This document shows, one piece after another, positions 3,353-33,354 of a stretch of DNA of 33,354 nt. Numbering within the stretch: the stretch's first letter is position 1; each line of letters begins with the position of its first letter. The translations under genes and the position numbers were made by a program. The stretch is from contig SLDS01000132.1 of the NCBI GenBank assembly GCA_007125175.1, forward strand, positions 1 through 33,354. Reading direction: 5' to 3'. The notes under the pieces are model-generated. The model was not told the origin of the DNA. It worked only from the letters and a program-made list of their open reading frames with translations, and ran no database searches. This DNA is from Flavobacteriales bacterium. GTDB taxonomy: Bacteria; Bacteroidota; Bacteroidia; Flavobacteriales_D; Cryomorphaceae.

Positions 3353-3386
3353 TAGTCCTTTTTGTAAGCCTTGTGTTGATTTAACC

Positions 3387-5525: not shown

Positions 5526-5592
5526 TAAGCTGGAGAGCGATTTTTGTTTTGACATGTAATTGAGTCTCTCGGCTACAGCTCTTTGGTACTCC

Positions 5593-6759: not shown

Positions 6760-6859
6760 AGCTTGTGCATTTGCGGCGCGTGGGCTATTCCTTGTTCTCT
6801 AAATTCCCCTTTCGGGAAAAAGGAAGCCACGCACTCATTATGGCTTTGGTATGCGATTG

Positions 6860-12133: not shown

Positions 12134-12144
12134 TCGCTTTCAGA

Positions 12145-13980
12145 TCAATTGATTTTCACGAGACCACCCTTAATCGTCGCCATGCCGTTGCCGGAGAGCT
12201 CGCTGGTAGCACTTCCTTCTACTTTCACCATCATTCCGCTTAAGCTGGCATTCATCGTGCCTTCAATTTCGGCGTTTTGTCCTCCCTTAGCAGTGAAGTT
12301 GGCAGTGCTCTCGAGCTCCAAGTTTTGTGTGGCCTTGATGGATGTGGCTCCACGTGAACTCATTTGGTTCTTGCCACCGGCATTAATTTTGAAATCCCTG
12401 TCAGTAACCACTTCGAAATTGCCTCCGGCATCGAAGCGTACTTTACCATTGGCAGTAAACTGCATGTCGCCGTCAGTGATGAGTTCGATCTTTCCATTCC
12501 CATCGCATTGCAATTCAAAGGAGTTGCCCTCATTGCGAATGATAAGCTTGCCATTGTCATCAAAAATGATCTGATTGCCGCTGCGTGTTTTGATGGATTT
12601 CAGGCTGTTGTCATCATCGTATACCTCGTCGTACTTGCTGGGCCCGTTGTAAAGAGAACCAATAACATAAGGCTGATCAAGGCACCCATTTTCAAAGCCA
12701 ACGATTACTTCATCCTCAATTTCGGGAAGGAAGTACATGCCCCTGCTATCGCCGGCATGGGTGTTGGCAATCCGTATCCATGGGCTTACGGAGGCATCAC
12801 ACCAGTCAAAGCGCACCCTCACACGCCCGAGTTTTTCCGGGTCGCAATTTTCCATCACCACGCCCACGCAGGAATGAAGTTTTGGCTTTTGAAAGTATAT
12901 GTCCTTGGGAAAAAGGGCTTCTTTCGGAATGGCTTTGAAATGGTTGCTGTAGCTTCGGGCATCCACACAGCTGTGGCTGATGGAAACCACGACGAATTCG
13001 CCTGCATGGTGCATTCCATCAAGCCGAATAATGCTGCCCAGCCTCAATTTTGCACTGTCGCAATCACCTGATACGGTCATTACATTGGCTTGCTGCACCT
13101 TGTTGGCTACGTTGAGTTTATGCGACAGCTGTGTCTTTTCATCTTGCATATTATCACCAGAAGCGAAGGAGCCTTTGTTCACATGACATTGCTCAGACCC
13201 CGTAAACAGATTTTCGGATTGCTCAATGTTATGACTGGCCATAACGTCGCTCGCCTTCACTTTTTCGGGGATTATTTCTTCCATCTTATTCTCCCTGTAG
13301 TCCCGGGCCCAGACTTTTGGACTCGAGGAGCTTAGAGAGTAGTCGTATCGGAGGTTGCGCAGGCGGTCGTGTCCTATATCCAGAGTGGCTGCACCCGGGT
13401 CTTTTCCCAGACATAGGTTTTCACCATCGTAGTAAAACCACTCTCCATACTCGAAGCATAGGCGCTTTATGAAATCAAAATCGCTCTCCTCGTATTGCAC
13501 CGTATAGGGCAGGTCGGATGAATATGTGAGATTGTCATTCACAGCTATTTTTCCCGAAAGGTGCCTATTGAGGCAGGTGCGAAAGATGTCCATAATGGTG
13601 GACTCTTCGTAGCCTTGATTGTGAGGGATGGTATCCATGAGTATGGTGGTGCTGAAGCCTCTCAAATTTACATTTGAATGTTCCCACTTGTTTCCATTCA
13701 CATTCATATCGGTCACGATACCTTTGAAAACCGATGAGTGACGACTGCCATCTGTATCTTCGGGGCTGGCTGTAGCGAGTTCGATTTCGATATCTGCACC
13801 GATTAGCTTTTGCAAGACGGGGATGGGGTCATCGCCTGTATTGACTTTTACCAAAGTGGCCATCGGCAGATTCACTTCAAATTCGTGATGACTGAAGATG
13901 GCCTGCGAGATGTAGATACTGCTCACAGAGCGAAGCTCCGAGCCGCCGATAGTTACCAAAAATCTGAAGTGTTCTGCCAT
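12145..13980 (-). CDS. vgrG: T6SS spike protein VgrG (TssI)
   Basis: gp27/gp5-like layout; VQYEESDFDFIKRLCFEYGEWFYYDG; GRVRVRFDWCDASVSPWIRIANTHAGDSRGMYFLPEIEDEVIVGFENGCLDQPYVIGSLYNG; no C-terminal effector domain. Confidence 0.95.
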   Translation of the reverse strand: MAEHFRFLVTIGGSELRSVSSIYISQAIFSHHEFEVNLPMATLVKVNTGDDPIPVLQKLIGADIEIELATASPEDTDGSRHSSVFKGIVTDMNVNGNKWEHSNVNLRGFSTTILMDTIPHNQGYEESTIMDIFRTCLNRHLSGKIAVNDNLTYSSDLPYTVQYEESDFDFIKRLCFEYGEWFYYDGENLCLGKDPGAATLDIGHDRLRNLRYDYSLSSSSPKVWARDYRENKMEEIIPEKVKASDVMASHNIEQSENLFTGSEQCHVNKGSFASGDNMQDEKTQLSHKLNVANKVQQANVMTVSGDCDSAKLRLGSIIRLDGMHHAGEFVVVSISHSCVDARSYSNHFKAIPKEALFPKDIYFQKPKLHSCVGVVMENCDPEKLGRVRVRFDWCDASVSPWIRIANTHAGDSRGMYFLPEIEDEVIVGFENGCLDQPYVIGSLYNGPSKYDEVYDDDNSLKSIKTRSGNQIIFDDNGKLIIRNEGNSFELQCDGNGKIELITDGDMQFTANGKVRFDAGGNFEVVTDRDFKINAGGKNQMSSRGATSIKATQNLELESTANFTAKGGQNAEIEGTMNASLSGMMVKVEGSATSELSGNGMATIKGGLVKIN

Positions 13981-13998
13981 GATTGCCTGTGTTGTGGA

Positions 13999-15345
13999 TT
14001 ATTCCTGCTCGTAGTCCGCTTTCCAATCTGCTGAATCGGGGTCGTCGCCTTTTTGTCCTTCGAGCTTGAAGACGTAATTCTTCGCAGGGAAGTAAGGGGT
14101 CATGTGAATATCCAGGTTGATTTTGTCTTTTTGATCCTTGTCCTTCTCAAAGCGAAGGATTTTGAATTTCTCGATAAGCTTTCCGGGACCGGTATTGTTA
14201 TCGAGGAATTTCACGATTTGTGAGCGAATCTCGCGCTCTGTCTTGGAGTTGAAGTTCTCGAAAGCACGGCGGTTGAGGAAATCCATCAATACCTTAGAGA
14301 TGTAGTCGAATACGCGCACCACCGAGTAGGTTTGCAAACCGATATTGTCTCCGTTGAAGAGGGTTTTTGCCGAGAAGGCCATCACCTTGCCGTACTCATT
14401 TACCATGGGTACCAATCCCATTTTTTCCAGTTCTGCGAGTTCGCTTTTGCGCAAATCGAAGGCCACACCGTCTACTTCGTTTAGAGCCCCGTGCTTCTTA
14501 CCCGCAGTAACCTGCGACATCAGTGTCTTATAGATTTTTCCCGCAAGGGCCGATGAGGGTGGCACGAGCACGTCCTCCTCTTCGTTGAAGGTTTCGTCTT
14601 TCTTTCTTCCTACCAGCCAGTTGCAGGCCATTACCACATTCGACTTGTACACGTCTCCCCCGGCGAGATTTTCGTGTTGGAAGAGCTCCATCACATCGTC
14701 CGGATTGTCCAGGTGGCGGAAGTCGGTAACGAGTGTAGCTTTATTGCCATGGCACATTTTGGCCCACTTTTCTACTACTTTATTGGAGCCAAGATATCCG
14801 GGCACAGCTACGATACCGTAGTTTTCGCGGAGATCCAGCCTGTCGAAGCAGTCTTTAAGTTCTTCGTGCACTTCATTGATAAACTTTGGGTTGTCCAAAT
14901 CCTGAAGCTGCTCCAAAGAGGCGTTCATGATGTTGACATTCTTCACCTTGTCGCTTTCCGTATTGTTGAAGAAGAGCGCAAGTGATCGGTATGAACGCTC
15001 GAGGTCGGACGTTTGCTTCAGCACATTCGACATGTTTTCGGTGAAAAGGGCATCGTATTGTTGTGCCTTCTCTTCGCAGGAGGAGATGATCTCCGCCACA
15101 TCCTCTGAGCTGGTAAGGATATCGATCCAAAGTTTGAGTTTGCCTTTCAATTCTTTGCGCGCTCCGGCATTGTGGCTTTCGGTGAGGAATATTTGCTTTC
15201 TCGCCTTTCGGTCCGGATTCAGGTTTTGCGTGCCGTCTACGGCCGATTCGATGAGGTCGAATCCACCAAATTTCGCAAGACTATCTACAGCTTCGTCAAT
15301 GTCTTTGTACTTGAGCTGCTCCTGTTGTTGTTGATTTTCAGCCAT
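13999..15345 (-). CDS. tssC: T6SS sheath large subunit TssC
   Basis: 448 aa; YGIVAVPGYLGSNKVVEKWAKMCHGNKATLVTDFRHLD; GDNIGLQTYSVVRVFDYISKVLMDFLNRRAFENF typical of subtype iii TssC; adjacent to tssB. Confidence 0.88.
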   Translation of the reverse strand: MAENQQQQEQLKYKDIDEAVDSLAKFGGFDLIESAVDGTQNLNPDRKARKQIFLTESHNAGARKELKGKLKLWIDILTSSEDVAEIISSCEEKAQQYDALFTENMSNVLKQTSDLERSYRSLALFFNNTESDKVKNVNIMNASLEQLQDLDNPKFINEVHEELKDCFDRLDLRENYGIVAVPGYLGSNKVVEKWAKMCHGNKATLVTDFRHLDNPDDVMELFQHENLAGGDVYKSNVVMACNWLVGRKKDETFNEEEDVLVPPSSALAGKIYKTLMSQVTAGKKHGALNEVDGVAFDLRKSELAELEKMGLVPMVNEYGKVMAFSAKTLFNGDNIGLQTYSVVRVFDYISKVLMDFLNRRAFENFNSKTEREIRSQIVKFLDNNTGPGKLIEKFKILRFEKDKDQKDKINLDIHMTPYFPAKNYVFKLEGQKGDDPDSADWKADYEQE

Positions 15346-18399: not shown

Positions 18400-19146
18400 C
18401 TAAACGCCGAAAAGTTGGGTGAAAACAGGTCTTTTGCTTCGACCAATGGGCACCATGGTCTCGTCGCTCATGATCAGGTGGCCTCCTTCGCTTTTTGCGT
18501 AAAGCGAAATGTGATCGATATTGATCAGATAGGACTTGTGTGCCCTCAAAAAACGGCGGGAGTTCAGAATGCTTTCAAAATATTTCAAGTTTTTAGAGAT
18601 CAGGTGCTTGCCTTTCTGAGTCACGATCAAGGTATACTCCACATCTGCTTTGCAATACATGATTTCGTCGGGGCTGAGAAAGATGTATCCATTGGAGGTG
18701 GGAAATTGGAGTTTCTTGAATTTGTAATCTGTGGAGGCGGGGGTGTAATGGCCATAATTCAATTGACGCCCAAGCTTTCTTGCTTCTACCTTGCGCTTTA
18801 GCAGGCGTTTGAGCTCGATTTCAGATATGGGCTTGAGCAGGCAATCGTACTTGCTGGCCTTGATGTTTTGGTAGATGAAGTTGTTGACATTGGCCAGAAA
18901 GATGTAATCGGATTTTTTTCCTGGAGTCTTGCCAAATACCTCTGCACCCGTGAAAAAGGGAAACTCCATATTCAGGAATACCATATCGGGCTGCTCCCGC
19001 AATACCCTTTTGTGGCCTTCTTTATGGCAACGATAGACTCCCAGATTCTTGAAATCATCCCCGAAGTTTTTGATTTCGCGCTGTATAAGCCGGATGGTAT
19101 TGTCATCGCTCTCAATGATATAGTATGTGATCGGTGATAGCTTCAC
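18400..19146 (-). CDS. LytTR-family DNA-binding response regulator with degenerate receiver domain
   Basis: C-terminal LytTR domain (IMYCKADVEYTLIVTQKGKHLISKNLKYFESILNSRRFLRAHKSYLINIDHI); N-terminal receiver fold with MVFLNMEFP where the phospho-acceptor Asp is expected. GTG start. Confidence 0.9.
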   Translation of the reverse strand: MKLSPITYYIIESDDNTIRLIQREIKNFGDDFKNLGVYRCHKEGHKRVLREQPDMVFLNMEFPFFTGAEVFGKTPGKKSDYIFLANVNNFIYQNIKASKYDCLLKPISEIELKRLLKRKVEARKLGRQLNYGHYTPASTDYKFKKLQFPTSNGYIFLSPDEIMYCKADVEYTLIVTQKGKHLISKNLKYFESILNSRRFLRAHKSYLINIDHISLYAKSEGGHLIMSDETMVPIGRSKRPVFTQLFGV

Positions 19147-19391: not shown

Positions 19392-20093
19392 TTAATAACC
19401 AAAATCCCAACCTGAATTCTTTCTCGCCGGAGTGCCATCTTCGTCATTCTGATCGCTGTCTTCTTCCTCACCGGTCTTAGGTGCAGGGGGATGACTGCTT
19501 TGATCTTCAGGTGCTGAAGGAGGCCCGGCTTCACTGCTCTCATTGATCGGAGGGCTGTTTTCGGGGCTTATCTGATCATTGCGCAGCACGGGCTTTTGCT
19601 CGAAGACATCTGTGAGCACCTTATTTGAAGATTGGAGCTGCAGCAAGCCGTCGCCCAAGGCATATTCCACGAGCAAGCCATTTTCATCTTCGGCCAGAAA
19701 GGCCTCAATGGGCCCGAAGAAATCCAGCAATTGTTGCTTATCGCATGTGGGGAGAAACTCCCGAAGTACACGTGGATCGTAGTAGCGAAAATAGAGTTCG
19801 CGACCATCTTCCGTGGCCACCACCAGAAATTTGCGCAAATGTGTGTAAAGCTCATTGGGCTCTGCATTGCAGCGGATGAAGACTCCCCAGCTATTGGATT
19901 GAGCTGCCTCCGATAGCCATGCGGCAAAATCGCTTCCGTCTTCAAGGTCGAATAGCCAAGGCGCAACAGCGCCCAGAAAGCGCTCACTATCCCCCTCGTA
20001 CAGGCATATGTGCTCCGGGTTGAGCTCGCGGGCCTTTTCCATTTCACCCCGCATCTTGGCGGCGTCGAGGAGTACGTAATTGGCGGTGTTCAC
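19392..20093 (-). CDS. DUF4123-like T6SS effector adaptor/chaperone (Tap/TEC-type)
   Basis: NYVLLDAAKM...WGVFIRCNAEPNELYTHLRKFLVVATEDGRELYFRYYDPRVLREFLPTC matches the DUF4123 pattern; acidic, proline-rich C-tail. Confidence 0.82.
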   Translation of the reverse strand: MNTANYVLLDAAKMRGEMEKARELNPEHICLYEGDSERFLGAVAPWLFDLEDGSDFAAWLSEAAQSNSWGVFIRCNAEPNELYTHLRKFLVVATEDGRELYFRYYDPRVLREFLPTCDKQQLLDFFGPIEAFLAEDENGLLVEYALGDGLLQLQSSNKVLTDVFEQKPVLRNDQISPENSPPINESSEAGPPSAPEDQSSHPPAPKTGEEEDSDQNDEDGTPARKNSGWDFGY

Positions 20094-20234
20094 GGGGTCA
20101 TGCTATTCAAAATTGATCTGCGGCATCAGCTGCTCAGTAATTTGTGCAAAACAGCTTACAGGCATATTGCGCGGCCGCTCACCATTTTTCAAATCTAACA
20201 AAAGCATTGGCAAATGCCATTTTCATTCATTGCT

Positions 20235-21239
20235 TCAATTCTTTTTGCGCACCAGAAGTTTGGCAGCTTCCAACTGAACAAAGGATTCGTCATCGCTTAA
20301 GGCAATGCTGAGACGTGGCTCTGCAGCTCGGAGCTCAAATTGCAGCTGAATGCTCTTGCCTCCATTTTCTGCAAGTATGTCCAGGGCTCTTGCGGTTTCA
20401 CTTTCGTCAAATTGAATGTTGGCCACATACTCAGTGGGTCCTTCTGCCCATTCCAGAATACAGCTCTCGGGTACTGCGCGTTCGCTGATCAGGGCCCCTT
20501 TGTTTTTTTGGAAATGTACATATTCTCGCTCTCCACTTATGAAGCGGGTGTGCGCGCTGATGGCCCTTTGCTCACCCAATATCTGGTAATCGTAGGGGTA
20601 GCGCTTGCGCATGTCTACCGCATAGCGCTCCCGGGGCACAGCTGTGTCGATCAGCTGCCGGGCCCTTTCCTCGTCCATCACTTCTGAGAGTTTTATCAGT
20701 TGGTATTCCTTGCGGCTCACGCTGGTCGAAGGCATGAAATCTTCCCAGGGCATGTCATAGGTTTCGCCCTCGCCGCTAGCCATTTCCAGCACCACCTGCT
20801 CTCCGTATAGCCACACATTTACGATGCCGCCGGGACCTATGGCAAGCATGATGGTTTCAAAGTTTTTCATGCCATTATCCACAGGTGATATGTAGGGGGT
20901 CGAGAGCAGCTCTTCTGCCATGGAGGCTTCCCAGCTCATGTCTATTTTGTAAAACAAATCTTCTACAAAGGAGTACCAGATGAGATGCGCGCCAACAGGT
21001 GCAGGCTTATACTCATCGCCAGACATGTAAATGGTGCCCATTTTGCCCCAGCCTTTACTCACGGTTTTTCCTGTAGCCATTTTGAAGGACTCCCCATCGG
21101 GCCCTTTGAAGTGAGCTTGCACGAGCTGCACAGGATAATCTTTTGGTGCGCATTCTGTGGGGATCCAATTGAAAGTTTTCATCTGTGGATTGCAGTTTAA
21201 GGCGAGTAAAATCAGGGCGATTGTTGACAGTTTTCCCAT
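20235..21239 (-). CDS. DUF2931-like putative lipoprotein, candidate immunity protein for the adjacent lipase
   Basis: Short signal-like N-terminus ending in Cys (MGKLSTIALILLALNC); ...DYPVQLVQAHF...GPGGIVNVWLYG...RYPYDYQI resembles DUF2931; located next to the DUF2235 gene. Confidence 0.65.
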   Translation of the reverse strand: MGKLSTIALILLALNCNPQMKTFNWIPTECAPKDYPVQLVQAHFKGPDGESFKMATGKTVSKGWGKMGTIYMSGDEYKPAPVGAHLIWYSFVEDLFYKIDMSWEASMAEELLSTPYISPVDNGMKNFETIMLAIGPGGIVNVWLYGEQVVLEMASGEGETYDMPWEDFMPSTSVSRKEYQLIKLSEVMDEERARQLIDTAVPRERYAVDMRKRYPYDYQILGEQRAISAHTRFISGEREYVHFQKNKGALISERAVPESCILEWAEGPTEYVANIQFDESETARALDILAENGGKSIQLQFELRAAEPRLSIALSDDESFVQLEAAKLLVRKKN

Positions 21240-21243
21240 CGCA

Positions 21244-22716
21244 TCAGCCTCTTAGTATCAGTCGTTCCCTCACACCTGTGAGGGGGTCACCGGTGCTCCA
21301 TCTCGGCACATTTACGAAGCTGTCATAATTGGCAGAAATGTGGAAATAGCGGTTGCGTATTCGGCGCATGAGGTCGGGATCCAATCTCCAATTGCCCTGC
21401 CCATCGGGCCCTAAGACATGCTCCAGCTGAGCGAGTTCCGGATGGGAGCCGGCACTTATTTCATTTCTCAAGTCGAGATCTGCACTGAAGTTGACCTGCT
21501 CTTGCTGGAACCAGTGTGCCATTATTTTGAGCGGTATGCGGTCATAAGTATTTCGAAGCCTTCGTCTCGTTACACTGATGCGGTTGCGCCATCCTGAGTC
21601 ATCAATTTGAGAGGCGGTAGCCCAACCTTCATTGATGAGCCATCGCTTTTCTTCCTCCACCCGGCGCCTGTGTCTCTCTCGCTGCTGGTAAAAGCTCAGT
21701 TTGAAAACCAGTAAATCTTCTTCGTGAATGGCATCGCGATAACCTCCTCCCACATCCGTGTGCACACCAGGAAGCACGATTTCGGTGCCACCCGCACTGG
21801 CAATATTGGTGAGGGGAAAGTTATTCCGGTATTCATCTGCGGCAGCGAGTTGCACTACTTTTTGGGCGGCACTGATTGCGTCGAGCGAGAGAATGCCTGT
21901 ATCCAAATGGTGTCTGGATACACCAAAAGCTGCCACGGTATCAAAAAGTCCTACAAATCGCACCTCCACTTGATCGACAGTGTAGCCCGCTGCCCGAAGC
22001 TGTTCCTGCACACTGTCAGACCCGGTGTTCAGGGCCGCATGCACAAAGTTTCTGGCGGCAGCTGCCCCACGGCTGAAGCCGACAGCGTCCAGCTGTATTA
22101 GTTCTATTTCGCGATCCGGGCAGTCGGCCCCGCGTATAGCGCTGATCACGCGGCTTATACCCCTGGCTACTTTGGCGATGATGCCTGTCCCGCCCCTTCC
22201 GGTAGCCATGCCGACGAGGTTGTCGCTTTGGCCATCCCGGGTGCCAATACCCTCAATGTAAGCCACAATGTGCTCATCGAAGCCCGGGGCATTATCGAGC
22301 ATATACGTTTGGAGCTTGGATACATTCGTTTCAGCACTGGCAAAGCTTCCATCGGCATTGGCGGCACGCTCTGCTTGTCGGATACACCTGCGCAGCCATC
22401 GCCTCTCTTGCTCCAGCATGTTCTTTTCATCTCGAGTGAGATCTTCCCTGCTCAGGTTTTGCTCCACCTGATTCAATCTGCTTTGGTACTCGGCGAGTTG
22501 GGCTTCGGCCATTTGCCGATCCCGTACATTGTTGCGGTTGTTTTGGGTGCCGTCAAAAAACATGCTCACCCGAAAACGGTTGCGCACTACAGGCGGATCC
22601 TCTTGGCTCTCTTGCTGAGCGGGAGCATTTTCGCCACAGGCCAATCCTCCCTGGCTATCGGCGTCGGTCGCAGAGGTATTGCCTGTGTACTGTGGTGGAT
22701 TGTTTTGACCGGGCAT
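21244..22716 (-). CDS. DUF2235/Tle1-like T6SS phospholipase effector
   Basis: RFRVSMFFDGTQNNRNN; nucleophile elbow VGFSRGAAAARNF (GxSxG); FVGLFDTVAAFG; GVHTDVGGGYRD. Confidence 0.88.
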   Translation of the reverse strand: MPGQNNPPQYTGNTSATDADSQGGLACGENAPAQQESQEDPPVVRNRFRVSMFFDGTQNNRNNVRDRQMAEAQLAEYQSRLNQVEQNLSREDLTRDEKNMLEQERRWLRRCIRQAERAANADGSFASAETNVSKLQTYMLDNAPGFDEHIVAYIEGIGTRDGQSDNLVGMATGRGGTGIIAKVARGISRVISAIRGADCPDREIELIQLDAVGFSRGAAAARNFVHAALNTGSDSVQEQLRAAGYTVDQVEVRFVGLFDTVAAFGVSRHHLDTGILSLDAISAAQKVVQLAAADEYRNNFPLTNIASAGGTEIVLPGVHTDVGGGYRDAIHEEDLLVFKLSFYQQRERHRRRVEEEKRWLINEGWATASQIDDSGWRNRISVTRRRLRNTYDRIPLKIMAHWFQQEQVNFSADLDLRNEISAGSHPELAQLEHVLGPDGQGNWRLDPDLMRRIRNRYFHISANYDSFVNVPRWSTGDPLTGVRERLILRG

Positions 22717-22752
22717 GGTGGCTTCTAATAATCAGTTTTGGCGCTCAGCTCT

Positions 22753-23139
22753 TCACCGAGGTGCTAAGTTTACACGCTTCTTTCGGTAATTTTTTGAGTT
22801 CAGTGCGATCATAAGTTCCTCCACTTTCCTGTCTTGGGGCAGGTCTTCTCTGTTCAGCAGCGCTGTAATGGCATCGTGCTGGAGCCCGAAGAGGCCGTGG
22901 GTGATGTCGAGGTACATGAGTTTTTGTACGTTTATTTCGCGCTTTATACCATGCCTTTCGGCAAATTCGATGGCGACTTCCACATAGCTTCTCAAGTCAT
23001 CTTCATTCTTTCCCGCTCGCCACTGTGGAAAGTTTTGTTCAAAAAAGACCAGAGATTTTTCAATAAAGCGCTCCCTACTCAGTCGGCTGAAATGTTTCAG
23101 CTGTTCCGTGCGCAATACCATATGAATTTCCTGTGCCAT
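22753..23139 (-). CDS. Small PAAR-associated protein, putative accessory/adaptor
   Basis: 128 aa; VLRTEQLKHFSRLSRERFIEKSLVFFEQNFP...AIEFAERHGIKREINVQKLMYL resembles short proteins encoded beside DUF4150/PAAR genes in Proteobacteria; sits between PAAR and Tle1-like genes. Confidence 0.6.
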   Translation of the reverse strand: MAQEIHMVLRTEQLKHFSRLSRERFIEKSLVFFEQNFPQWRAGKNEDDLRSYVEVAIEFAERHGIKREINVQKLMYLDITHGLFGLQHDAITALLNREDLPQDRKVEELMIALNSKNYRKKRVNLAPR

Positions 23140-23146
23140 GCTATCC

Positions 23147-23635
23147 TCAACTATGGCTTGGGCAATCGGGACAAGAAGTTGGATTGTGCACCAAAGGGGC
23201 TCCGTCGGCTGCTGCCTGGGTGAGGGCCATGACTTGGCCCAATACTGATTGGGTCACAGGAGGAGCCGACTGAATCACTGCTTGCGCATTTTGCACCATT
23301 CCTCCCGGCGAGCCGCCTCCACCACCCGCACCCACTTCTCCTATGAGTACCGTTGGCGCTCCGATTATTATCGAGCCGCCGTGAGCAGTAACGTCGCCCA
23401 TTCGAGCAGCAGGTCTTCCTCCTATAAGTACGCCTGAAGATCCCATGATGATGGTATCGGGTGGGCCGACGCATGTGCACATTTCACCCAATACGGCTGC
23501 AGGCACCCCGCATATCAGCACATTGGCCACACCGGGGCCCATTACTGGGCCTCCCACGTGGGGCACGGGAGGGGTGCCCGGGGTCACCATTGGGCACACG
23601 TGCATATCGCCAATACGGGCAGCTGGTTTTGACAT
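23147..23635 (-). CDS. PAAR-repeat (DUF4150-like) T6SS spike-tip protein
   Basis: MSKPAARIGDMHVCPM..., GGRPAARMGDVTAHGGSIIIGAPTVLIG; two PAAR motifs; start set at 23635. Confidence 0.9.
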   Translation of the reverse strand: MSKPAARIGDMHVCPMVTPGTPPVPHVGGPVMGPGVANVLICGVPAAVLGEMCTCVGPPDTIIMGSSGVLIGGRPAARMGDVTAHGGSIIIGAPTVLIGEVGAGGGGGSPGGMVQNAQAVIQSAPPVTQSVLGQVMALTQAAADGAPLVHNPTSCPDCPSHS

Positions 23636-23886
23636 TGGCTTTCCGGTTTTAGATGGTTTATAACTGGTCAGCGCTAATGTACAATTTTTTCCTTGTCTGA
23701 GCTTCTTGCATCTCATTTTGTGGCAGCCCAAAAGGACTTTCATCAGTCAGATTGTGAGAATACTGAATTTACACGGCCATCACTAAATATCGCTATACGC
23801 GGGTTCGGATCTTTGATTCCATCTGCACTTAGGACTTTAATCGACGCAGATTCATGGCAATGGCTGAATGTGCGGCCATACCCTTT

Positions 23887-24026: not shown

Positions 24027-24545
24027 ATGAAGCCAGTCAATTCCCGGGAACGACGCAAGGCATTTATGTCTTTTCTGTTCATGTTTATTCTCGCTATTGT
24101 TCCTATTTGCATTTCCATTTACCTTTTCGGTAGGGTAGACCATGCGGAGAATGATTTTCTGCGGGAAAAATACAGGCAGAGCCAACAGCTGCAGGAGGTG
24201 AAGTACAGCGAGGCCAGGGTGTACAGCTCCCTCAATGATGAAGTGATTGCCGTACAAAACCAAATCACCCAATCGCAGGACGTGGCAACAGCACGACCCG
24301 AAAGTGGAAATATCGAATCCCGCATCAATGCACTCAACAGAAGCCTGAGAGAGCTTCAAGGCGAGCTCAGTGGTGTAAAGCTCAACTCCACAGAAGCACT
24401 TATGCTCGAAATGATTCGTTCGCAAGCTGAGAGCCTGGAGAAAATGAACTCCATATACCGAGACACCTACGCCAGGCTTAGGGATGAGCGCGATGAGGTC
24501 GCCAAGCTCAAGAGAAGATTGGAAGCAAGTGGGATAATGCATTAA
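24027..24545 (+). CDS. tssO: T6SS subtype iii protein TssO
   Basis: 172 aa; MKPVNSRERRKAFMSFLFMFILAIVPICISIYLFG single N-terminal TM then coiled-coil; directly upstream of a tssP-like gene. Confidence 0.8.
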   Translation: MKPVNSRERRKAFMSFLFMFILAIVPICISIYLFGRVDHAENDFLREKYRQSQQLQEVKYSEARVYSSLNDEVIAVQNQITQSQDVATARPESGNIESRINALNRSLRELQGELSGVKLNSTEALMLEMIRSQAESLEKMNSIYRDTYARLRDERDEVAKLKRRLEASGIMH

Positions 24546-24567: not shown

Positions 24568-25695
24568 ATGGACAAGCTCACTTATATACCGCCTTTGATC
24601 ATTGCCTTTCTCGGGCTCATCTTGCTGGCTTTGAATATCAAGCCCGCATTTGAAGGGGAAATGGACTTTCGCACAGAAAAGGCCGAAGCGATCACACGTG
24701 TGCCCAATGCCCCTGATAGCATACAGGTGGGTACCGCCGCTGACCTCTTACTGCGGGTGCCGGATGGCGAGCTTTTCGACGGTGATATCTTCTGGTTGAT
24801 CAGCGGTCCACGCGATACAGTGGGCTACCACAGCCGCAAGCCCGGAGTGCGGTTCAACCAACTTGGCAATTACACCCTTTCAGCCTACCACAGGCAGCGC
24901 GAGCTGATAAGCCATGATGTGATCGTGGTAGAAGGCCGGGAAGTGCGCATGCACGTTGGGAGTGCTGAGCTCAAGGCAGGTGAGGAGTTTAAAGCTTCCG
25001 ACCGCAGCAATTTTAGCTCCGCTTCACGCAAATGGCAGGTGAGAGACAGCCGCGACCGACTCCTTGTCGAGCAAGAAGATGTAGAAGACTTCGCATGGAA
25101 GGCTCCTTCCGCCGGCGAATTTGTGGTCGCTTTGATATACCTCGATGATCAGGGAGAAGAGGTAGGCCGCAAAAACATGCCAATAGAAGTGGCCCCGCCC
25201 CCGGCGCCTGTGCGCAGGGCTGCACCAAAAGCCACTGCCCCCAAGCCGAAAACCCCAAAAGTGTCCGTGCTCTCGGTAGCAGCATCGGCGCTGCCATTCA
25301 ATTACAGAGGCCAGGATGTGGATCCGGACAAGGACTACAAGTCAAAGCAAGTGTACAAGGCCGATTTTGTGGCCAAACAAGATCTGCAGCTCAATCATAT
25401 CATCGCCTACCTGAAGGCAGGGGAGTACGAAATTCGGGTAAGTAGAAATGGAGAGGAAGTTTTTCGCGACAATGTTCGCTTGAACTCCGATAGGGCATGG
25501 GAATTTGGCTTTTCGAGGCTGGGACGCATTGAGCGTGATGATCAGCTCCAAATAAGCCTTCACACAGCCGAAGGCAAGGTGTTCACACGTCGCCCAAAAG
25601 CCAGTGATGTTTCCAACCCATACTTCTCCATCGAATTTGAAGGAGCCGAGCAGTGGATGTTTAATGCCGACCTCAATGTGAGTGGAAATGAATGA
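24568..25695 (+). CDS. tssP: T6SS subtype iii protein TssP
   Basis: 375 aa; N-terminal TM (YIPPLIIAFLGLILLALNI), beta-rich domain, proline-rich linker (APPPAPVRRAAPKATAPKPKTPK), second beta-rich domain; next to tssO. Confidence 0.75.
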   Translation: MDKLTYIPPLIIAFLGLILLALNIKPAFEGEMDFRTEKAEAITRVPNAPDSIQVGTAADLLLRVPDGELFDGDIFWLISGPRDTVGYHSRKPGVRFNQLGNYTLSAYHRQRELISHDVIVVEGREVRMHVGSAELKAGEEFKASDRSNFSSASRKWQVRDSRDRLLVEQEDVEDFAWKAPSAGEFVVALIYLDDQGEEVGRKNMPIEVAPPPAPVRRAAPKATAPKPKTPKVSVLSVAASALPFNYRGQDVDPDKDYKSKQVYKADFVAKQDLQLNHIIAYLKAGEYEIRVSRNGEEVFRDNVRLNSDRAWEFGFSRLGRIERDDQLQISLHTAEGKVFTRRPKASDVSNPYFSIEFEGAEQWMFNADLNVSGNE

Positions 25696-25794: not shown

Positions 25795-28245
25795 ATGAAC
25801 GCAGCTCGCTACATTTTGATCGCTTTGATATGGATTGCTACGCTTGCAGCCGGATCGGTGAGCGCCTTAGCCCCTACAAATACCGGCATGGATGGTTTGC
25901 CACCTGATGTGGTGCCTCCGGGAAATCAGGAAGTGTGTGAGGGCGAAGAGGTGACCTTGGAGGTGCAAGCGAATCCCAATGGTGCCGTTATAGAATGGTA
26001 CACGGTCGATGGGCAAGATACGCTGACCTATGTCGACGGCGTCGCCTTCACGCCCCATACCACTGGCCTGATTACATATACACTTGTTGCTTCGGATGGT
26101 ATAGTCTCTGATACGAGTACAGTGGAAGTAAACGTGGTGGAGCTACACACGATAAGCTCTGCTGCCGATCGCACCCTTTGCATCAATTCGACCATGACAC
26201 CCATCGAGATAGTTTTCGGTGGTGGAGCTACCAATGCCACCGTTCAAGGTTTGCTGCCGGGGGGGATAAGTTCCGCTGTCTCGAATGAAACCCTCACCAT
26301 TTCGGGAACAGCCACCACTGCAGGCACCTTCAACTATACCGCCCAAACTGTGGCCAATGCCTGCCCCTCGGTACAGACAAGCGGAACCATCACCGTACTT
26401 CCGGAAAACACCTTTGACCTGAGCTCTGCCCCCGAAAGCCTCGATCAGGAGATTTGTGAGGGAGACTCCATCGATCCCATCACCTTCGAGACAAGCGGAG
26501 CAGGTGGAGTCAATTTCAACAATTTGCCGCAAGGCTTGAGCGCCATATGGGATGATGACCTGGGCAGTATTACCGGATTTCCTACCGATACTGGGGTCTT
26601 CTCCTTCGAGATTGAACTCACAGGCGGGTGCGGAGATGTGTCTCAGGGTGTGGAACTCTCGGTGCGTCCAAGACCAGTGGTAGACGCCGGGCCCGATCAG
26701 CTCTTGTGTGACGATGATCCCGTGGTGGAGCTGGAGGGAACAGTAATCAATGCCCCCAATCACATCTGGAGCTCCCCGGACGATGAGGGGGCTTTTCAAA
26801 ATGTTTCTCAGCTCGCGACGCTCTTTGAGCCCAGTGAAGATCAGCTGGACTCAGGGTCTGTGGTGCTCACACTTACCGCTCAGGGCGGCGCGGCAGTGTG
26901 CGGAATCGTTTCCGACAGCCTCACGCTTACTTTCACCGAGGCGTTCAGTGCCTTTTTCGAATACGATGATCCATTTTGCAGCAATCAGGATGAGCTGGTA
27001 AGCCCGGAACTTTTTGGCACCGAAGGTGGAGTATACGGTGGAGACATACCCGGTATCGATCCACAGGACGGGAGCTTCAATCCCTCCGATCTGCAGTCGG
27101 GAGAGTATGACGTGACTTATACCGTGCCGGAAGGAGGTGGCTGCGCCCAGTTTGATACCACCCTGAGCATCACCATCAACCACCCCCTGAGTGAGGTCCA
27201 AATCTTGGGCAATGATTCTGAATTTTATTGCAATCAGGAGGATTTGATTCTCACGGGAACAGCTCAAAATGCACTTTCTTTTCAATGGGAGATAGAAGAA
27301 GGAGGAGGGGATTATATACCTCTGCCCGACACGACCATTGCTTACACACCTCAAGATTATGCAGGTGAAGTTCTTGTTTCGTTTTCCGCTTCTGCCCTTC
27401 CGGGTTGTTTTGAGATTGTCACTGTATTTACCGATTTCGTTATGGTGCCCCCGCATGGAGGGGAGATTCAAGAGGTGATCCCGGAAGTATGCGAAGGCGA
27501 TTTGCTCACATTTGCAGCAGAGGAAACGGAGTTTGATCAATATTATACCTATGAATGGAACTTGCAGGATGAGAACGGGAATCCCACAGGCAGCGCTACA
27601 GGCCCGGAAGATGAGGCTGAAGTGACTTATCAGCTGGGATCTTTTGAGGAGGAAAGCAGCTTGGAAGTCTCTCTCTCTACCATGGTGGATGGCTCTTGCC
27701 TTTCGCAGGGCAGTGAAAACTTTGAGGTGTTTCTGGAGCCCGATATCTGCGATTATTTCGAATTGGCCGGGAATATTTTGGTGATCAATGCCTGTGAAGA
27801 AGGAGAGATAGACCATTTCTATCAATGGGGCTGCGGATCAAATAGCCTTGAAGATGAGACGGACATTTACCTCCATTACGGGCCTTATCTCGATGAATGC
27901 GAAGACTTTTGGGTGAGTGTGTCACTTTATGAAGACGGTCGGTGTCCTGTGTATGAGGGAAGCAATTTCCCAGTATCAGCCAGCGCCTCTCCGGAGTGGC
28001 AGATGCAGGTGTATCCCAACCCCGCAAGCCGCGAATTATTTCTCGAGCTTCCAGCCGCCGCGCTGAGCCCTGCCATGACTTATGAGCTTTACTCTCAGAG
28101 TGGAGTGCGAATAAGTCAAGGGAATCTGCAGGGCATGGCCTCCAGGCAGACCATAGACATCGGCAAGCATGCTGCGGGCTATTACATCCTGCAGGTGCGC
28201 AGCGGGGAGCATATTTTTCGACATTCAATAGCCATTATAAGATGA
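25795..28245 (+). CDS. Secreted PKD/Ig-like repeat protein with T9SS type A C-terminal sorting domain
   Basis: Signal peptide; Ig/PKD-like repeats (GNQEVCEGEEVTLEVQANPNGAVIEWYTV..., RPVVDAGPDQLLCDDDPVVELEGT...); C-terminal VYPNPASRELFLELPAA...AAGYYILQVRSGEHIFRHSIAIIR. Confidence 0.85.
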   Translation: MNAARYILIALIWIATLAAGSVSALAPTNTGMDGLPPDVVPPGNQEVCEGEEVTLEVQANPNGAVIEWYTVDGQDTLTYVDGVAFTPHTTGLITYTLVASDGIVSDTSTVEVNVVELHTISSAADRTLCINSTMTPIEIVFGGGATNATVQGLLPGGISSAVSNETLTISGTATTAGTFNYTAQTVANACPSVQTSGTITVLPENTFDLSSAPESLDQEICEGDSIDPITFETSGAGGVNFNNLPQGLSAIWDDDLGSITGFPTDTGVFSFEIELTGGCGDVSQGVELSVRPRPVVDAGPDQLLCDDDPVVELEGTVINAPNHIWSSPDDEGAFQNVSQLATLFEPSEDQLDSGSVVLTLTAQGGAAVCGIVSDSLTLTFTEAFSAFFEYDDPFCSNQDELVSPELFGTEGGVYGGDIPGIDPQDGSFNPSDLQSGEYDVTYTVPEGGGCAQFDTTLSITINHPLSEVQILGNDSEFYCNQEDLILTGTAQNALSFQWEIEEGGGDYIPLPDTTIAYTPQDYAGEVLVSFSASALPGCFEIVTVFTDFVMVPPHGGEIQEVIPEVCEGDLLTFAAEETEFDQYYTYEWNLQDENGNPTGSATGPEDEAEVTYQLGSFEEESSLEVSLSTMVDGSCLSQGSENFEVFLEPDICDYFELAGNILVINACEEGEIDHFYQWGCGSNSLEDETDIYLHYGPYLDECEDFWVSVSLYEDGRCPVYEGSNFPVSASASPEWQMQVYPNPASRELFLELPAAALSPAMTYELYSQSGVRISQGNLQGMASRQTIDIGKHAAGYYILQVRSGEHIFRHSIAIIR

Positions 28246-29777
28246 GATGGAAATACATATACGGGTGTTTTTCGCTCCTGGGAGCTGCTTTGATGCTGGC
28301 GAGCACCCCGACCCTCGCACAGGGAGAAGATGATGCAGCGCTGAGCGCGGAAGATTCCACAGCACTGTCACTGGCTTTGTCGGTGGCAGATGCCTACGTG
28401 GATCACCTGGATCGCTATTTCAACCGTGGAGAGGCCATGAGCGACGAGCTCCGCGAAGGTTTCATGGTGCTTTTCACGGGCAGCCAAAAGATCATTTCCG
28501 ATTACTCCGCTCAAACCCGGCGCATTGAGCCCGCTGAATACCTCTTTGAGGCCGGTCAGATTTTTGCCGATGAGCGCCCGGCCCTCCAAGCCCAAATAGA
28601 CAGAGAGGGCGCTGTGGTCAAGCATTTTCCCAATGACCGCTTTCACCTCGCTGCCATTCCTTTGGACACGCGCTTCAGTCGATACTTTGATCTGTCAACA
28701 GGGGCTGTGGTCAACGATACCATCGAGAAGTTTCTCACCCTCGAGGTGCGCATTACCGGAATCGAAAATGCCCGCATAGATCGAAGTGTGGAACGGGCGC
28801 CCGTACTTTACTATGCTGAACAACGCGCACTCCTCGCCCAGGCCGAGCAAGAACGCGATAAAAGGAGAAAGGAGGAAAACGAAAAAAAGTCCGACGCGCC
28901 CAGGGAGCGCCGTGCGAAACCAGAACGGATGAAGGCAGATATGCATTCATATATTTTTGCCGGTTTTGTCCTGGGCGGGGACTTGTCTTCCAACCAGCTC
29001 GAATCGCAGAGTGAGCTGTATTCCTTCTCAAACCACAGCTTTCAGATGAATGAGACCAGCATCCAATACTTCATGCCCCTGCACCGCAGTGGTCTCTACC
29101 TGCATACCGGTTTTGGCATCTCCGTTGGAAGGCTCGACCTGGAATACAACAATGCATCTTTCAGCTTTGAGCAAGTGGATAACCTGAATCCCAGCAGTGA
29201 TGTCCAATTTGCAGAAGCGGGAATTGTAAATAGTTACCAGCGCACCGCCATCTTGGAGGATATCAGCGAACGAATTGATTTTACGGACATAAACTTTCGT
29301 CTGGGCCTGGGCATAGATCTGCTCAGTGATTCCAGAGAATTGTTCATGTTCAGTGCTGGCATGATGCTTGGAGTGACCAATGCCCAAAAATCTGATGTCA
29401 TGCTTACAGCCAACTACCACGGCCATTTCAGCGAGGTCAATGGATTGCCGATTGACCTGACCCTTGGTGTGAACGAAGACTTGCCGGAGTATGGATTTGA
29501 CGAGCGGCGTTCGCTCATGGATTTTGTGATTGACAGAAGGCTTATTTACAGCGCTTATGCTCAAGTGGCTTTCGCCAAACACATCGGTGATAAAGTCTAT
29601 GTGGGTATACAGCTCGAAGGCCGCCTGCCCATGAATCAATGGCTAGAGGGAGGTGCAGATCACGAATTGCTCTTTGGCAATCACGGAGACTTGGACAGCA
29701 GCCTGGCAGACTTGGTGAGCGACATCCGTCGGCCCTATTTTCTGGGGGGGGGAGTTCTCCTGGGGATGAAATTTTAA
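28242..29777 (+). CDS. Outer-membrane beta-barrel protein with N-terminal periplasmic domain, within the T6SSiii plus-strand block
   Basis: Signal peptide (MRWKYIYGCFSLLGAALMLASTPTLAQ); alpha/beta N-domain; charged linker (AEQERDKRRKEENEKKSDAPRERRAKPERM); amphipathic strands, terminal Phe (YFLGGGVLLGMKF); ATGA overlap with the upstream gene. Confidence 0.7.
   Translation: MRWKYIYGCFSLLGAALMLASTPTLAQGEDDAALSAEDSTALSLALSVADAYVDHLDRYFNRGEAMSDELREGFMVLFTGSQKIISDYSAQTRRIEPAEYLFEAGQIFADERPALQAQIDREGAVVKHFPNDRFHLAAIPLDTRFSRYFDLSTGAVVNDTIEKFLTLEVRITGIENARIDRSVERAPVLYYAEQRALLAQAEQERDKRRKEENEKKSDAPRERRAKPERMKADMHSYIFAGFVLGGDLSSNQLESQSELYSFSNHSFQMNETSIQYFMPLHRSGLYLHTGFGISVGRLDLEYNNASFSFEQVDNLNPSSDVQFAEAGIVNSYQRTAILEDISERIDFTDINFRLGLGIDLLSDSRELFMFSAGMMLGVTNAQKSDVMLTANYHGHFSEVNGLPIDLTLGVNEDLPEYGFDERRSLMDFVIDRRLIYSAYAQVAFAKHIGDKVYVGIQLEGRLPMNQWLEGGADHELLFGNHGDLDSSLADLVSDIRRPYFLGGGVLLGMKF
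29744..29752. repeat. Homopolymeric G9 tract within the beta-barrel gene
   Basis: tttctGGGGGGGGGagttctcc, near the 3' end of the 28242-29777 ORF. Confidence 0.8.
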
Positions 29778-29789
29778 GCAAGAAAAAAC

Positions 29790-32378
29790 ATGTGTATCAA
29801 GCAATTTTGCACACTTATGATCGCTTTGCTTCTTTGGCCCCTTGCGGCAAATGAAGTGCATGCGCAACGCGGCGGCAGCGAACATCTGCCGGCAAAACCG
29901 GACAATCTCCGGGATAGAATTCGCTTTGATGATGAGGGTTCGAAAGACTATACCAACCTTACAAATCCATACAAAGCGGGCAGTACTTTTGGCATAAGCC
30001 AGAGGGGCAAGAAGCGTTCGAGTGATTATTGGAGGGTGTTCAGCGACCGCGATGAGAATGTGCTCTACCAAGACCCCGGGTTGAACCAGGCGGGCAGCAT
30101 CACAGCCAGCATCGGGCAGAAGCTCTATGTACTCGATGAGAACCCGAATGCCCTCAAAGTGCTGGCGCTGAAATCAGATCCTTATACCGATGGATCTTAC
30201 GATCACGGCAGCGTGCTCGGCGAGGGCTGGATCGCCAAAGAAAACCTTCTGCTCTGGGAGAAGCCGCTTATCTCCGAAAATTCCAGCTTCGAAATGAAGG
30301 CCTTCCTGATGAATCTCAACGATCAGGATTTGCTTGCCGAATTTGCCCGAAAGGGAAAAGACAAAGACCTTGTAGAACTCTACCACGCCCCGGATGCCGG
30401 CGAAGCTGTGAGCAAGAAGCAGCTTTACGAAGTGCTCTTCGTGTTCAAGTACGACAGTGAATCCCGCCGCTACCTCGTGGCCAATGATGCCATCATAGGA
30501 GGCTATGGCTATGAGCTCTTCTGGGTGAGCGAATCGCGCATCAAGGTGTGGAATACGCGTCTGGCACTGGAGTGGAATTTTGACTCGGAGGCCTGCGAAG
30601 AGCGCAGGGAAGGGCGCAGTGCAACTGTTTTTTCCATGCCACAGCGTGCAATCGATTATGCGGCAGGGCAGTTTGATCCCGATTTTGGAGGAGAAAACAA
30701 ATTCCTCGACGCCAAAGACCCTTGCTCGGATCGCCGACTCAAGGCAGCAGAGGTGTTCGACCCTAAGAGCAGCCGATATGTAGGCTCAGTGATTCGCTAT
30801 CCCTTCTTTGAGAGCCGCCCCGGATACTACGTCTGTGGAGCCCTCACCCGCTTCGACCCCAAGAGCATGATCGCCCTCGACAATTGGGAGGCCACCGAAT
30901 CTGAAATCGACAATAAGCTCGAAAAAGGATCCCGGGTGAACATCATGCTCGCCATCAACGGCACTTTCACTTCGCGGAAAAATGCAGAATACTACGCCGA
31001 CCTGGTCGATCAGGTGCGCAATTCCTTTGATAGAGATACCATCTTCAAGGGAAAGACAAGGGTGGGAGTGACCTTCTTCTACGACCTCAAGCGCGGCACC
31101 CCGCCGCTCACCATCGGCCCCTATGCCGACAGGGCAGGGCTGGAAGAAGTGAAAAATGCCATTGCGGATCCGCAAAGCTACCGCTCTGAGCCGCAGATAC
31201 CCCTGCTGTACAATGGCCTCAATGAAGCCCTTGAGCGGGGAGCGCAAGAAGGAGAAACCAATGTGCTCTTATTGTTGGGCGGCAGCAGCGACGTCTTTCA
31301 CAGAATGGTGCCGGTGGCCAATGCAGAAAAAAATCCCCTCTACGTGAGCGAACGTGAACTGCGCGATAAGATCCGCAAATACAATGCACACGTGATGGCC
31401 TTGCAAGTGGATGTGGAAGATGAGTACGCGATGTTTTACAGCGAATTCCGAAATCATTTTCGCACGCGGGTATTGGGAAATATCGTCAAGAAAGTGGACG
31501 AAGAGTACACCCGTGTAGCCGAATTTGCCGATGCCAAAAACCTGAGCTACCCGCAGTGGAGGTCTCGCGACGATTTGGGTGTAAGCAATGTGCGTATGGA
31601 CTATGTGGAGGACTTTCACCTTGAGTACGCGGTGCTCAGCGCCATCGATACCCGAGGTGATTTTTCATTGCCCACCAAGTCCATCAACACCTTGGTGACC
31701 GATTTTACCGATCGCATAGCCACCAAGGAGCGGAATATGCTCATCAACCTCAACAAGGTGGTGCGCGACCACTCCCAGTGGAAAAGCTTTATCGGCAGTG
31801 CGGGACAAGAGGTTGTGAAATCGCACTTGCTTCAAGGCTTCTCGGATGAACAGCTCAAGCAGCTCTTTTTGGAAAAGGTGCAATTGCTCTACACCGGCTA
31901 TACGCCAAAAATCATCGAAGGGCAGGAGCATGCCCTCTACCAGCAGGTGCTCTTCATGTCGCGACAAGATTTGCAGGAAATGCGGGAAAACATTCAGCGC
32001 ATCAAGCGTGAGGCACTCGATGCCCGAAGGCAACGCAAGGGAGTGGTAGAGGCATGGTACAGCTACGGGGCTGCCATTCTCAAAGAAGATGTTGCATCCC
32101 TGCAGAAAAACTATCCTGTGGAGCGCAGCAAGGATCTTCAGAGGCTATTGCTGAGCGGCGTGCCCGAGCTTACCGAGCACAGTAGTATGTTCTCCAGGTA
32201 TTCGGCGGTGGAAATACTCACCGAAGGAGGCAAAGTGCAGGGGGAAGACATCGACAAGTACCTCGGGAGTCTCGATGCCAAAGAGCGGCGCATCAGTGAG
32301 CTGCTGCAGAGTGCCAAACTGGAATACCGCACCGGGAGTTACACCTTCTTCTGGGTGCCAATAGAATACCTGCCATGA
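29790..32378 (+). CDS. tssR: T6SS subtype iii protein TssR
   Basis: 862 aa; signal peptide; RVNIMLAINGTFTSRKNAEYYADLVDQVRNSF... and NVLLLLGGSSDVFHRMVPVANAEKNPLYVSERELRDKIRKYNAHVMALQVDVED, vWA-like pattern; co-directional with tssO and tssP. Confidence 0.78.
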   Translation: MCIKQFCTLMIALLLWPLAANEVHAQRGGSEHLPAKPDNLRDRIRFDDEGSKDYTNLTNPYKAGSTFGISQRGKKRSSDYWRVFSDRDENVLYQDPGLNQAGSITASIGQKLYVLDENPNALKVLALKSDPYTDGSYDHGSVLGEGWIAKENLLLWEKPLISENSSFEMKAFLMNLNDQDLLAEFARKGKDKDLVELYHAPDAGEAVSKKQLYEVLFVFKYDSESRRYLVANDAIIGGYGYELFWVSESRIKVWNTRLALEWNFDSEACEERREGRSATVFSMPQRAIDYAAGQFDPDFGGENKFLDAKDPCSDRRLKAAEVFDPKSSRYVGSVIRYPFFESRPGYYVCGALTRFDPKSMIALDNWEATESEIDNKLEKGSRVNIMLAINGTFTSRKNAEYYADLVDQVRNSFDRDTIFKGKTRVGVTFFYDLKRGTPPLTIGPYADRAGLEEVKNAIADPQSYRSEPQIPLLYNGLNEALERGAQEGETNVLLLLGGSSDVFHRMVPVANAEKNPLYVSERELRDKIRKYNAHVMALQVDVEDEYAMFYSEFRNHFRTRVLGNIVKKVDEEYTRVAEFADAKNLSYPQWRSRDDLGVSNVRMDYVEDFHLEYAVLSAIDTRGDFSLPTKSINTLVTDFTDRIATKERNMLINLNKVVRDHSQWKSFIGSAGQEVVKSHLLQGFSDEQLKQLFLEKVQLLYTGYTPKIIEGQEHALYQQVLFMSRQDLQEMRENIQRIKREALDARRQRKGVVEAWYSYGAAILKEDVASLQKNYPVERSKDLQRLLLSGVPELTEHSSMFSRYSAVEILTEGGKVQGEDIDKYLGSLDAKERRISELLQSAKLEYRTGSYTFFWVPIEYLP

Positions 32379-33118
32379 GCCAAGCCTCCATACTCTTCGA
32401 GTTAAGCAATCTCTCGTGCCGGTATGGAGATCAGGAAGTCTTGCGCGTGGAGGAACTGAGCCTGCCTGCGGTGCCGCTCACTTTCATACTCGGTAGCTCG
32501 GGCATTGGCAAGAGCACCTTACTCGAGATGTTGGGGCTTATGTCCAATACCTACAGGGGTCGGGCCGATCGCTTCACATATCAGGGAGCCCAAGATTTGC
32601 GCGGCTTTTGGGACTGGCCTCAGAGTAAGCAAGCACATTTTCGGCGCAGCAATTTCAGCTTTGTCTTTCAGCAAACCAACCTCATCGAAAATTTCAGCAT
32701 CCTTGAGAATCTTTGCATACCCCTCATGATACAGGGATATGCCTATGAGGATGCCGCCAATAAGGTGACGGCTACTGCCGAAAAAATGAACCTCGATGCC
32801 CAGCTACTTTTGCGAAAAGCTACAGCGGTATCGGGAGGACAGCTACAGCGGGCTGCCTTTACGCGGGCGCTTTCCACCGATTTCAAAGTCCTCTTTGGCG
32901 ATGAGCCCACCGGAAACCTTGATAGCGGTAATAGCCGCACCCTCATGGGCTTGCTTAAGGACAACCTCGTGGAGCGCGGTGCCTCGGCCGTTGTGGTCTC
33001 GCACGACGTGGCCCTTGCCGAAGAATACGCCGACTGCATCATCCGCGTGAAGCGCATGGGCGATGAGGATAGGGCCTATGGACTCATTGATCAAAACTGC
33101 TTAAGTATATCGCAATGA
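32375..33118 (+). CDS. ABC transporter ATP-binding protein, LolD/MacB-like
   Basis: Walker A GSSGIGKST, signature VSGGQLQRAAFTRAL, Walker B VLFGDEPTGNLDS, H-loop VVSHD; ATGA overlap with tssR. Confidence 0.93.
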   Translation: MSQASILFELSNLSCRYGDQEVLRVEELSLPAVPLTFILGSSGIGKSTLLEMLGLMSNTYRGRADRFTYQGAQDLRGFWDWPQSKQAHFRRSNFSFVFQQTNLIENFSILENLCIPLMIQGYAYEDAANKVTATAEKMNLDAQLLLRKATAVSGGQLQRAAFTRALSTDFKVLFGDEPTGNLDSGNSRTLMGLLKDNLVERGASAVVVSHDVALAEEYADCIIRVKRMGDEDRAYGLIDQNCLSISQ

Positions 33119-33354
33119 GCAAGGGAAAGAAGTTGTGGAGTCTGCTCTTTACCAAAGAACTGAGCTATCTGGCTGGCAGAAGGGCTTCCAACCTCATCAC
33201 CCTTTTTGGCATCTCCTTTCTGAGCCTCACTGCCATCAGCATCGCCTACTCATCCGAGAAGTTTTTGAACTACCGGATGAATGACCCTTTCACCAACTGG
33301 CTGAACATACCCAAGCTCTCGACCATCGAAGAGCAAACCTGGCAGAAGCTTGCC
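33115..33354 (+). CDS. ABC transporter permease, MacB/FtsX-like N-terminus, truncated by window end
   Basis: MSKGKKLWSLLFTKELSYLAGRRASNLITLFGISFLSLTAISIAYSSEKFLNYRMNDPFTNWLNIPKL...; cytoplasmic N-terminus and first TM; ATGA overlap with the ATPase. Confidence 0.75.
   Translation, partial: MSKGKKLWSLLFTKELSYLAGRRASNLITLFGISFLSLTAISIAYSSEKFLNYRMNDPFTNWLNIPKLSTIEEQTWQKLA

Follow-up and report, generated by a model that had tools for sequence, protein, structure and literature searches.

The T6SSiii locus of the window

The window, the whole stretch of 33,354 nt analysed here, is one complete contig of its host genome (G000; 3.35 Mb in 257 contigs). The T6SSiii part of its minus strand comprises tssK, N, G, F, E, I, C, B and H, followed after tssH by genes for a LytTR regulator, DUF4123, DUF2931, a Tle1-like protein and PAAR, while the plus strand carries tssO, a probable tssP, a gene for a protein with a T9SS C-terminal sorting domain (CTD), a gene for a 511-aa protein, tssR, an ABC ATPase gene and the start of a permease gene. 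In profile searches TssC (PF17541) reached 734 bits and other T6SSiii families were matched as well (among them PF17555, PF06996, PF04965, PF04717, PF05591 and PF17643), the matched products being TssN, TssG, GPW_gp25, VgrG, TssB, a ClpV-like TssH, PAAR and TssR. The T6SSiii operon context proposed in an earlier note on this DNA is borne out by the TssC score together with the baseplate, sheath, VgrG, TssN and TssR matches. TssO (24027-24545, plus strand) falls just under its cut-off (PF17561, 28.6 bits against 29.2) and is syntenic with the tssO of L004, a locus from another genus of the same family (genome G015).

The following gene (24568-25695, plus strand) encodes an N-terminal transmembrane helix and an Ig/PKD-like periplasmic part. 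It has no Pfam match, is homologous and syntenic to a 402-aa gene of L004 (E 5e-9), and matches canonical TssP partially (hhalign 89% over 90 columns, E 2e-6); because this last match is partial, we rate the gene as only a probable tssP. The window TssP was not found in the same-genus genome G041, whose assembly is 81% complete and whose cluster is split over contigs. In loci of the L100 type, the ~291-aa gene before tssR aligns with TssP (hhalign 100%, E 2e-51), and by this sequence comparison its identity as TssP is beyond doubt. No TssQ candidate was identified in the window-type locus, where a single TssO-like gene was found; canonical loci and those of the L100 type have two such genes in tandem, probably tssO and tssQ.

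Downstream, tssR (29790-32378, plus strand) matches PF17643 (43.4 bits) and PF20780 (29.4 bits), both over cut-off, and encodes a signal peptide in which no lipobox was found. Right behind it lies an ABC transporter (32375-33354, plus strand) consisting of a LolD/MacB-like ATPase (32375-33118; PF00005, 72.9 bits), whose gene overlaps tssR by 4 nt, and a permease. The ATPase gene directly 3' of tssR is an order common to L004, L098, L104, L115 and L124, all with ATPase and permease as separate genes, as in the window; in L022, L102 and L107 the two are fused into a single gene of 800-840 aa. Present in much of the lineage described below and absent from L100, L101, L103 and the canonical loci, the transporter is a second lineage-specific component linked to T6SSiii. 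On the minus strand, the LytTR response regulator (18400-19146) adjoins tssH, has counterparts at 66% identity in G015 and 87% in G041, occurs in L018 and L019 too, and probably serves this T6SSiii branch as its dedicated regulator. The minus-strand genes at 19392-23743, encoding a DUF4123 adaptor, DUF2931, a Tle1-like phospholipase, a 128-aa product shared with L004 and PAAR, likely form an effector module, of which DUF2931 may be the immunity protein.

The CTD protein and its barrel partner

The product of the CTD gene (25795-28245, plus strand), 816 aa long, combines a signal peptide and Ig-like domains with a type A sorting domain. In translation its N-terminus, MNAARYILIALIWIATLAAGSVSALA, can be read as a signal peptide of the Sec type covering about aa 1-26 (25795-25872). 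A CHU_C-associated Ig-like domain (Ig_7, aa 40-100, 25912-26094) scores 36.5 bits with PF19081 against a cut-off of 27.3. Towards the C-terminus lie an Ig-like domain preceding the CTD (the pre-CTD domain; aa 612-736, 27628-28002), which has a QWG motif and a conserved Cys, the W and the C being invariant across 10 loci, and the Por_Secre_tail sorting domain (aa 739-806, 28009-28212), over cut-off with both PF18962 (31.7 bits against 27) and TIGR04183 (28.4 bits against 23). The reading of this ORF in the earlier note, a signal peptide plus a type A CTD, is thereby confirmed; of the Ig/PKD-like repeats that it also described, the Ig_7 part stands, and the PKD-like and He_PIG matches fall short of their cut-offs. 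The CTD family profile matches the solved T9SS CTD chains 8glk and 8glj, and AlphaFold models the last 344 aa of the protein as beta-sandwich domains (pLDDT 57), confidence being low except in the CTD. No sequence homology of the whole protein to solved structures, GhpA included, was found. A whole-length search was swamped by the Ig-like repeats of giant surface proteins, which aa 276-400 resemble. SprA_N is matched in the host genome (E 5e-147), so that a T9SS is present, and the sequence predicts that the 816-aa protein is a type A cargo exported to the cell surface.

The location of the gene between tssP and tssR, with tssP rated as probable, and its 4-nt overlap with the next gene agree with what had been noted before. 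The 99-nt gap upstream could hold a promoter; in a promoter and terminator scan of the operon, matches were no more numerous than in shuffles. Gene spacing is consistent with co-transcription of the CTD gene with its neighbours. The gene for a predicted surface protein within the T6SS locus is real, but the earlier note had missed its partner, the barrel gene at 28242-29777 (plus strand), and so described half of a pair.

This partner gene encodes a 511-aa outer-membrane protein, in which AlphaFold2 (pLDDT 62, low to middling) models aa 34-172 as an alpha/beta domain and gives the barrel about eight strands. The N-terminal domain (28341-28757) is NTF2-like (Foldseek 4wwu_I, Mex67:Mtr2, prob 1.00) and probably periplasmic, and the C-terminal beta-barrel (28950-29774), which ends in Phe, resembles OmpA (1bxw) and OprF (4rlc), both at prob 1.00. 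The protein is thus predicted, from these models, to combine an NTF2-like domain with an OmpA-type barrel. We rejected membership in the PorP/SprF family, given the lack of a Pfam match at E 0.1 and the OmpA-like model.

Barrel family members are diverse, at 15-20% identity to that of the window, and a single-sequence search with the window protein reached the same genus only; relatives needed an alignment. In hold-out tests, each profile left out the tested sequence together with its near relatives; the window protein was then detected with E 2.6e-7, seven others reached E 1e-16 or better, and L098 and L104 were weak. Full-length matches were limited to G000, G015, G091 and G183 in a sample of 399 genomes of the order, all of them lineage genomes already in the profile, and to the window's own genome in a phylum sample of 393. 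Since the remaining matches are short, generic barrel ones, these two samples hold no full-length member away from the T6SSiii lineage.

Conservation of the pair in one TssR lineage

The host genome has 129 PF18962 matches, ~123 of them over cut-off; besides the CTD gene, two of them lie inside the window. Because CTD proteins are so common in this genome, one CTD gene beside a T6SS tells little unless it is conserved, and conservation was therefore taken as the test. TssC is rare (9/399 genomes of the order and 25/393 of the phylum sample); a TssR profile was run over 80 T6SSiii genomes and the neighbourhoods were then fetched. In every locus of the close TssR lineage that no contig end interrupts, a barrel-like gene stands directly behind a CTD gene.

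Each of the 12 loci of this lineage that could be scored (the window, L004, L098, L100-L106, L124 and L125) carries the pair within the tssO/P/R cluster, always on the same strand and with a spacing of -47 to +28 nt. In L004 the order is tssO, tssP, a 1069-aa Ig-like protein with a CTD, a 477-aa barrel-like protein, tssR and ABC. The corresponding lengths of CTD protein and barrel are 1622 and 467 aa in L098, 1285 and 725 in L100, 1560 and 617 in L101, 1368 and 557 in L102, 1460 and 561 in L103, 715 and 487 in L104, 722 and 464 in L105, and 924 and 618 in L106. In the window, L004, L104 and L105 the pair has tssP on one side and tssR on the other; in L100-L103 and L106 it is upstream of tssP, and in L098 directly before tssR. 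L124 and L125 served as a prospective check: their genomes, from the order of another lineage member, were found via TssR alone, and both carry the pair, the CTD gene of L124 being seen as its end at a contig edge. Three further genomes (G041, G801 and G796) are interrupted by contig ends and were unscorable; on the G796 contig (L099) the end of a barrel gene lies in the expected place.

The CTD proteins of the lineage span 715-1622 aa and share a C-terminal module made up of two Ig-like domains and the stretch that precedes the CTD. A hold-out profile of this module recovers 8/11 members at E 1e-12 or better, with L104 marginal and L098 not recovered; the window module was missed as well, its relatives' profile placing it at rank 9 of 32 (E 2.7). 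For this reason, the membership of the window protein rests on position, architecture and barrel partner. We had considered the pre-CTD domain as a unique family marker, since an all-member profile gave one strong match per genome, but it failed in hold-out for the window and others. In the L104 and L105 relatives the sorting domain itself scores only ~18 bits. The N-terminal parts vary strongly in length and domains (Ig_7, PKD_5, PKD_6, GEVED, cadherin-like), as expected for surface binding proteins.

In ten canonical T6SSiii loci (L002, L007, L008 and L108-L114), by contrast, tssO, a second tssO-like gene, tssP and tssR follow one another unbroken, and none of the ten has a CTD or barrel gene within the cluster. 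SprA was found in 17/17 genomes tested, six of them canonical (G277, G658, G646, G410, G722 and G642), so a missing T9SS is not the reason for the absence of the pair there. A maximum-likelihood TssR tree of 21 rows splits canonical from pair-bearing rows at branch support 100/99, the pair-bearing side taking in two unscorable rows too. The T9SS-T6SS link suggested in the earlier note thus survives the refuting condition named there, a lack of conserved co-occurrence, for one lineage only (12/12 loci against 0/10 canonical ones). The Fisher value for this table (12/0 against 0/10) is ~1.5e-6, and because of shared descent it may reflect a single gain or loss; the retention of the pair while TssR identity falls to 17-22% across the lineage is the stronger argument. 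The association of pair and lineage is well supported, indeed nearly certain.

A related pair stands outside any T6SS. Genome G251 (L117) has a strong partial barrel match (E 1e-34) in a protein whose C-terminal part is an OmpA domain and which lacks an NTF2-like one; its gene stands directly behind that of a 3010-aa CTD protein, the two lying at 4284-15103. The C-terminal module of the CTD protein is matched at E 5e-22 by a profile made without that protein, and no TssC match was found in G251. The CTD and barrel pair therefore extends beyond the T6SS association and was probably co-opted, the NTF2-like domain being what the T6SS members added.

A candidate surface module of T6SSiii

The T6SSiii membrane complex TssNQOPR, in which TssP has PKD-like and TssR vWA-like domains (Bongiovanni et al. 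2024, PMC10781749), is encoded by the same locus type as that of the window, with the same tssO, tssP and tssR neighbours. In the Bacteroides complex TssR is the only possible outer-membrane component (PMC10781749). That paper contains none of the terms T9SS, type IX and barrel (PMC10781749), and the CTD-barrel pair is absent from canonical loci. The make-up of T6SSiii at the outer membrane is ill defined, and how the T6SS recognises prey contact is an open question; the CTD and barrel genes are candidates for both. Bacteroides is not known to have a T9SS. Our results suggest that component lists derived from Bacteroides miss parts of other lineages.

The closest known arrangements are SprB-SprF and PG1035-PorP, in which a T9SS-exported surface protein is likewise encoded with, and held by, an outer-membrane barrel (PMC9143113, PMC12618676), PorP/SprF proteins being the barrels that hold type B adhesins (PMC9143113). 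Those pairs combine a type B CTD with a FadL-family barrel, whereas in the window pair the CTD is type A and the barrel protein, without a PorP_SprF match, is predicted to join an NTF2-like domain to an 8-stranded barrel of the OmpA type. OmpA/OprF-type anchors also join an 8-stranded barrel to a soluble periplasmic domain, and the L117 relative has a real OmpA domain; the T6SS members have an N-terminal NTF2-like domain instead. In Aureispira ixotrophy, T9SS-exported grappling hooks (GhpA) are reported to work with the T6SS against prey (Lien et al. 2024, as described in PMC11205867). This joint use of a T9SS surface protein and a T6SS is what that system has in common with the one proposed here. 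Ig-like tandem folds are common to both systems (Foldseek 9flu, 9fly), although such folds are generic, and GhpA fragments gave no sequence match to the CTD protein or its family. In the accessible literature, with most subscription papers outside our search, we found no description of a T9SS cargo in a T6SSiii locus, and as far as that literature shows the CTD-barrel module of this lineage is undescribed.

We consider it fairly probable that the two proteins form a conserved outer-membrane and surface module of one T6SSiii lineage, docked in the periplasm and acting outside as a prey-contact adhesin or collar. The NTF2-like domain would face the periplasm and dock to TssR/TssP, which would anchor the T6SS exit in the outer membrane. 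Outside the cell, the C-terminal Ig-like part of the T9SS-exported protein would be held by the barrel or its loops, and from there the variable N-terminal Ig/PKD/cadherin-like array would project outward as a prey-contact adhesin or a collar. An 8-stranded barrel cannot be a pore for the T6SS tube. The barrel may supply the outer-membrane anchor in this lineage, because lineage TssR has a plain signal peptide without a convincing lipobox, which some canonical TssR possess, although several canonical TssR lack one too. More tentatively, and with somewhat less than even confidence, we can envisage that the T9SS builds a prey-sensing tip that is an obligate outer-membrane and surface component of the T6SS, so that firing would depend on the T9SS. 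Against the module reading counts the usual route of type A CTD proteins, in which PorV handles them and they become attached to A-LPS, so that no dedicated barrel is needed (PMC9143113, PMC12618676).

The missing lipobox, and the location of the pair inside the membrane-complex cluster, would also suit a purely structural collar or gasket that stabilises or plugs the exit site in place of a missing outer-membrane lipoprotein and binds no prey. We regard this as unlikely, since several of the canonical TssR without a lipobox have no such pair and large, variable repeat arrays of 715-1622 aa suit binding better than packing. It is also improbable that the pair serves general cell attachment and sits in the locus for co-regulation only. 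The related pair outside a T6SS in L117, the abundance of CTD proteins in the host genome and the resemblance of aa 276-400 to repeats of giant surface proteins speak for such hitchhiking, but it fits poorly with retention in 12/12 loci over deep divergence and at two different positions within the tssO/P/R cluster, with the absence of the NTF2-like domain from the non-T6SS relative, and with the lack of full-length family members elsewhere in the 399- and 393-genome samples.

A role in defending the producer, as a surface shield or immunity protein against sibling T6SS hits, draws on surface location and position in the locus, and on nothing else; it is very unlikely, as the pair adjoins membrane-complex genes whereas the effector genes (Tle1-like, PAAR, DUF4123) are on the other strand. 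With ~123 CTD proteins over cut-off in 3.35 Mb, an ordinary one might also have landed here by chance. The difference between lineages, 12/12 against 0/10 with the identical partner gene each time, contradicts such chance co-location and leaves this explanation next to no probability. The surface module that we favour would constitute a direct genetic link between two secretion systems, T9SS and T6SS, and the pair suggests an unrecognised cell-surface part of the T6SSiii contact-killing machine.

Further features of these loci deserve mention. The other branch of the lineage repeatedly has, between tssP and tssR, a gene for an exported protein of ~205-221 aa (L100 7380-8045, L101 13000-13623, L102 9742-10389, L103 3008-3673, L106 9283-9897 and L125 1002-1628), and L125 has two successive barrel gene copies (2534-5574; 471 and 538 aa) behind its CTD gene. 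At the opposite end of the window contig (1154-5525, plus strand) two M43 metalloproteases are encoded in tandem, both bearing PKD and T9SS sorting domains.
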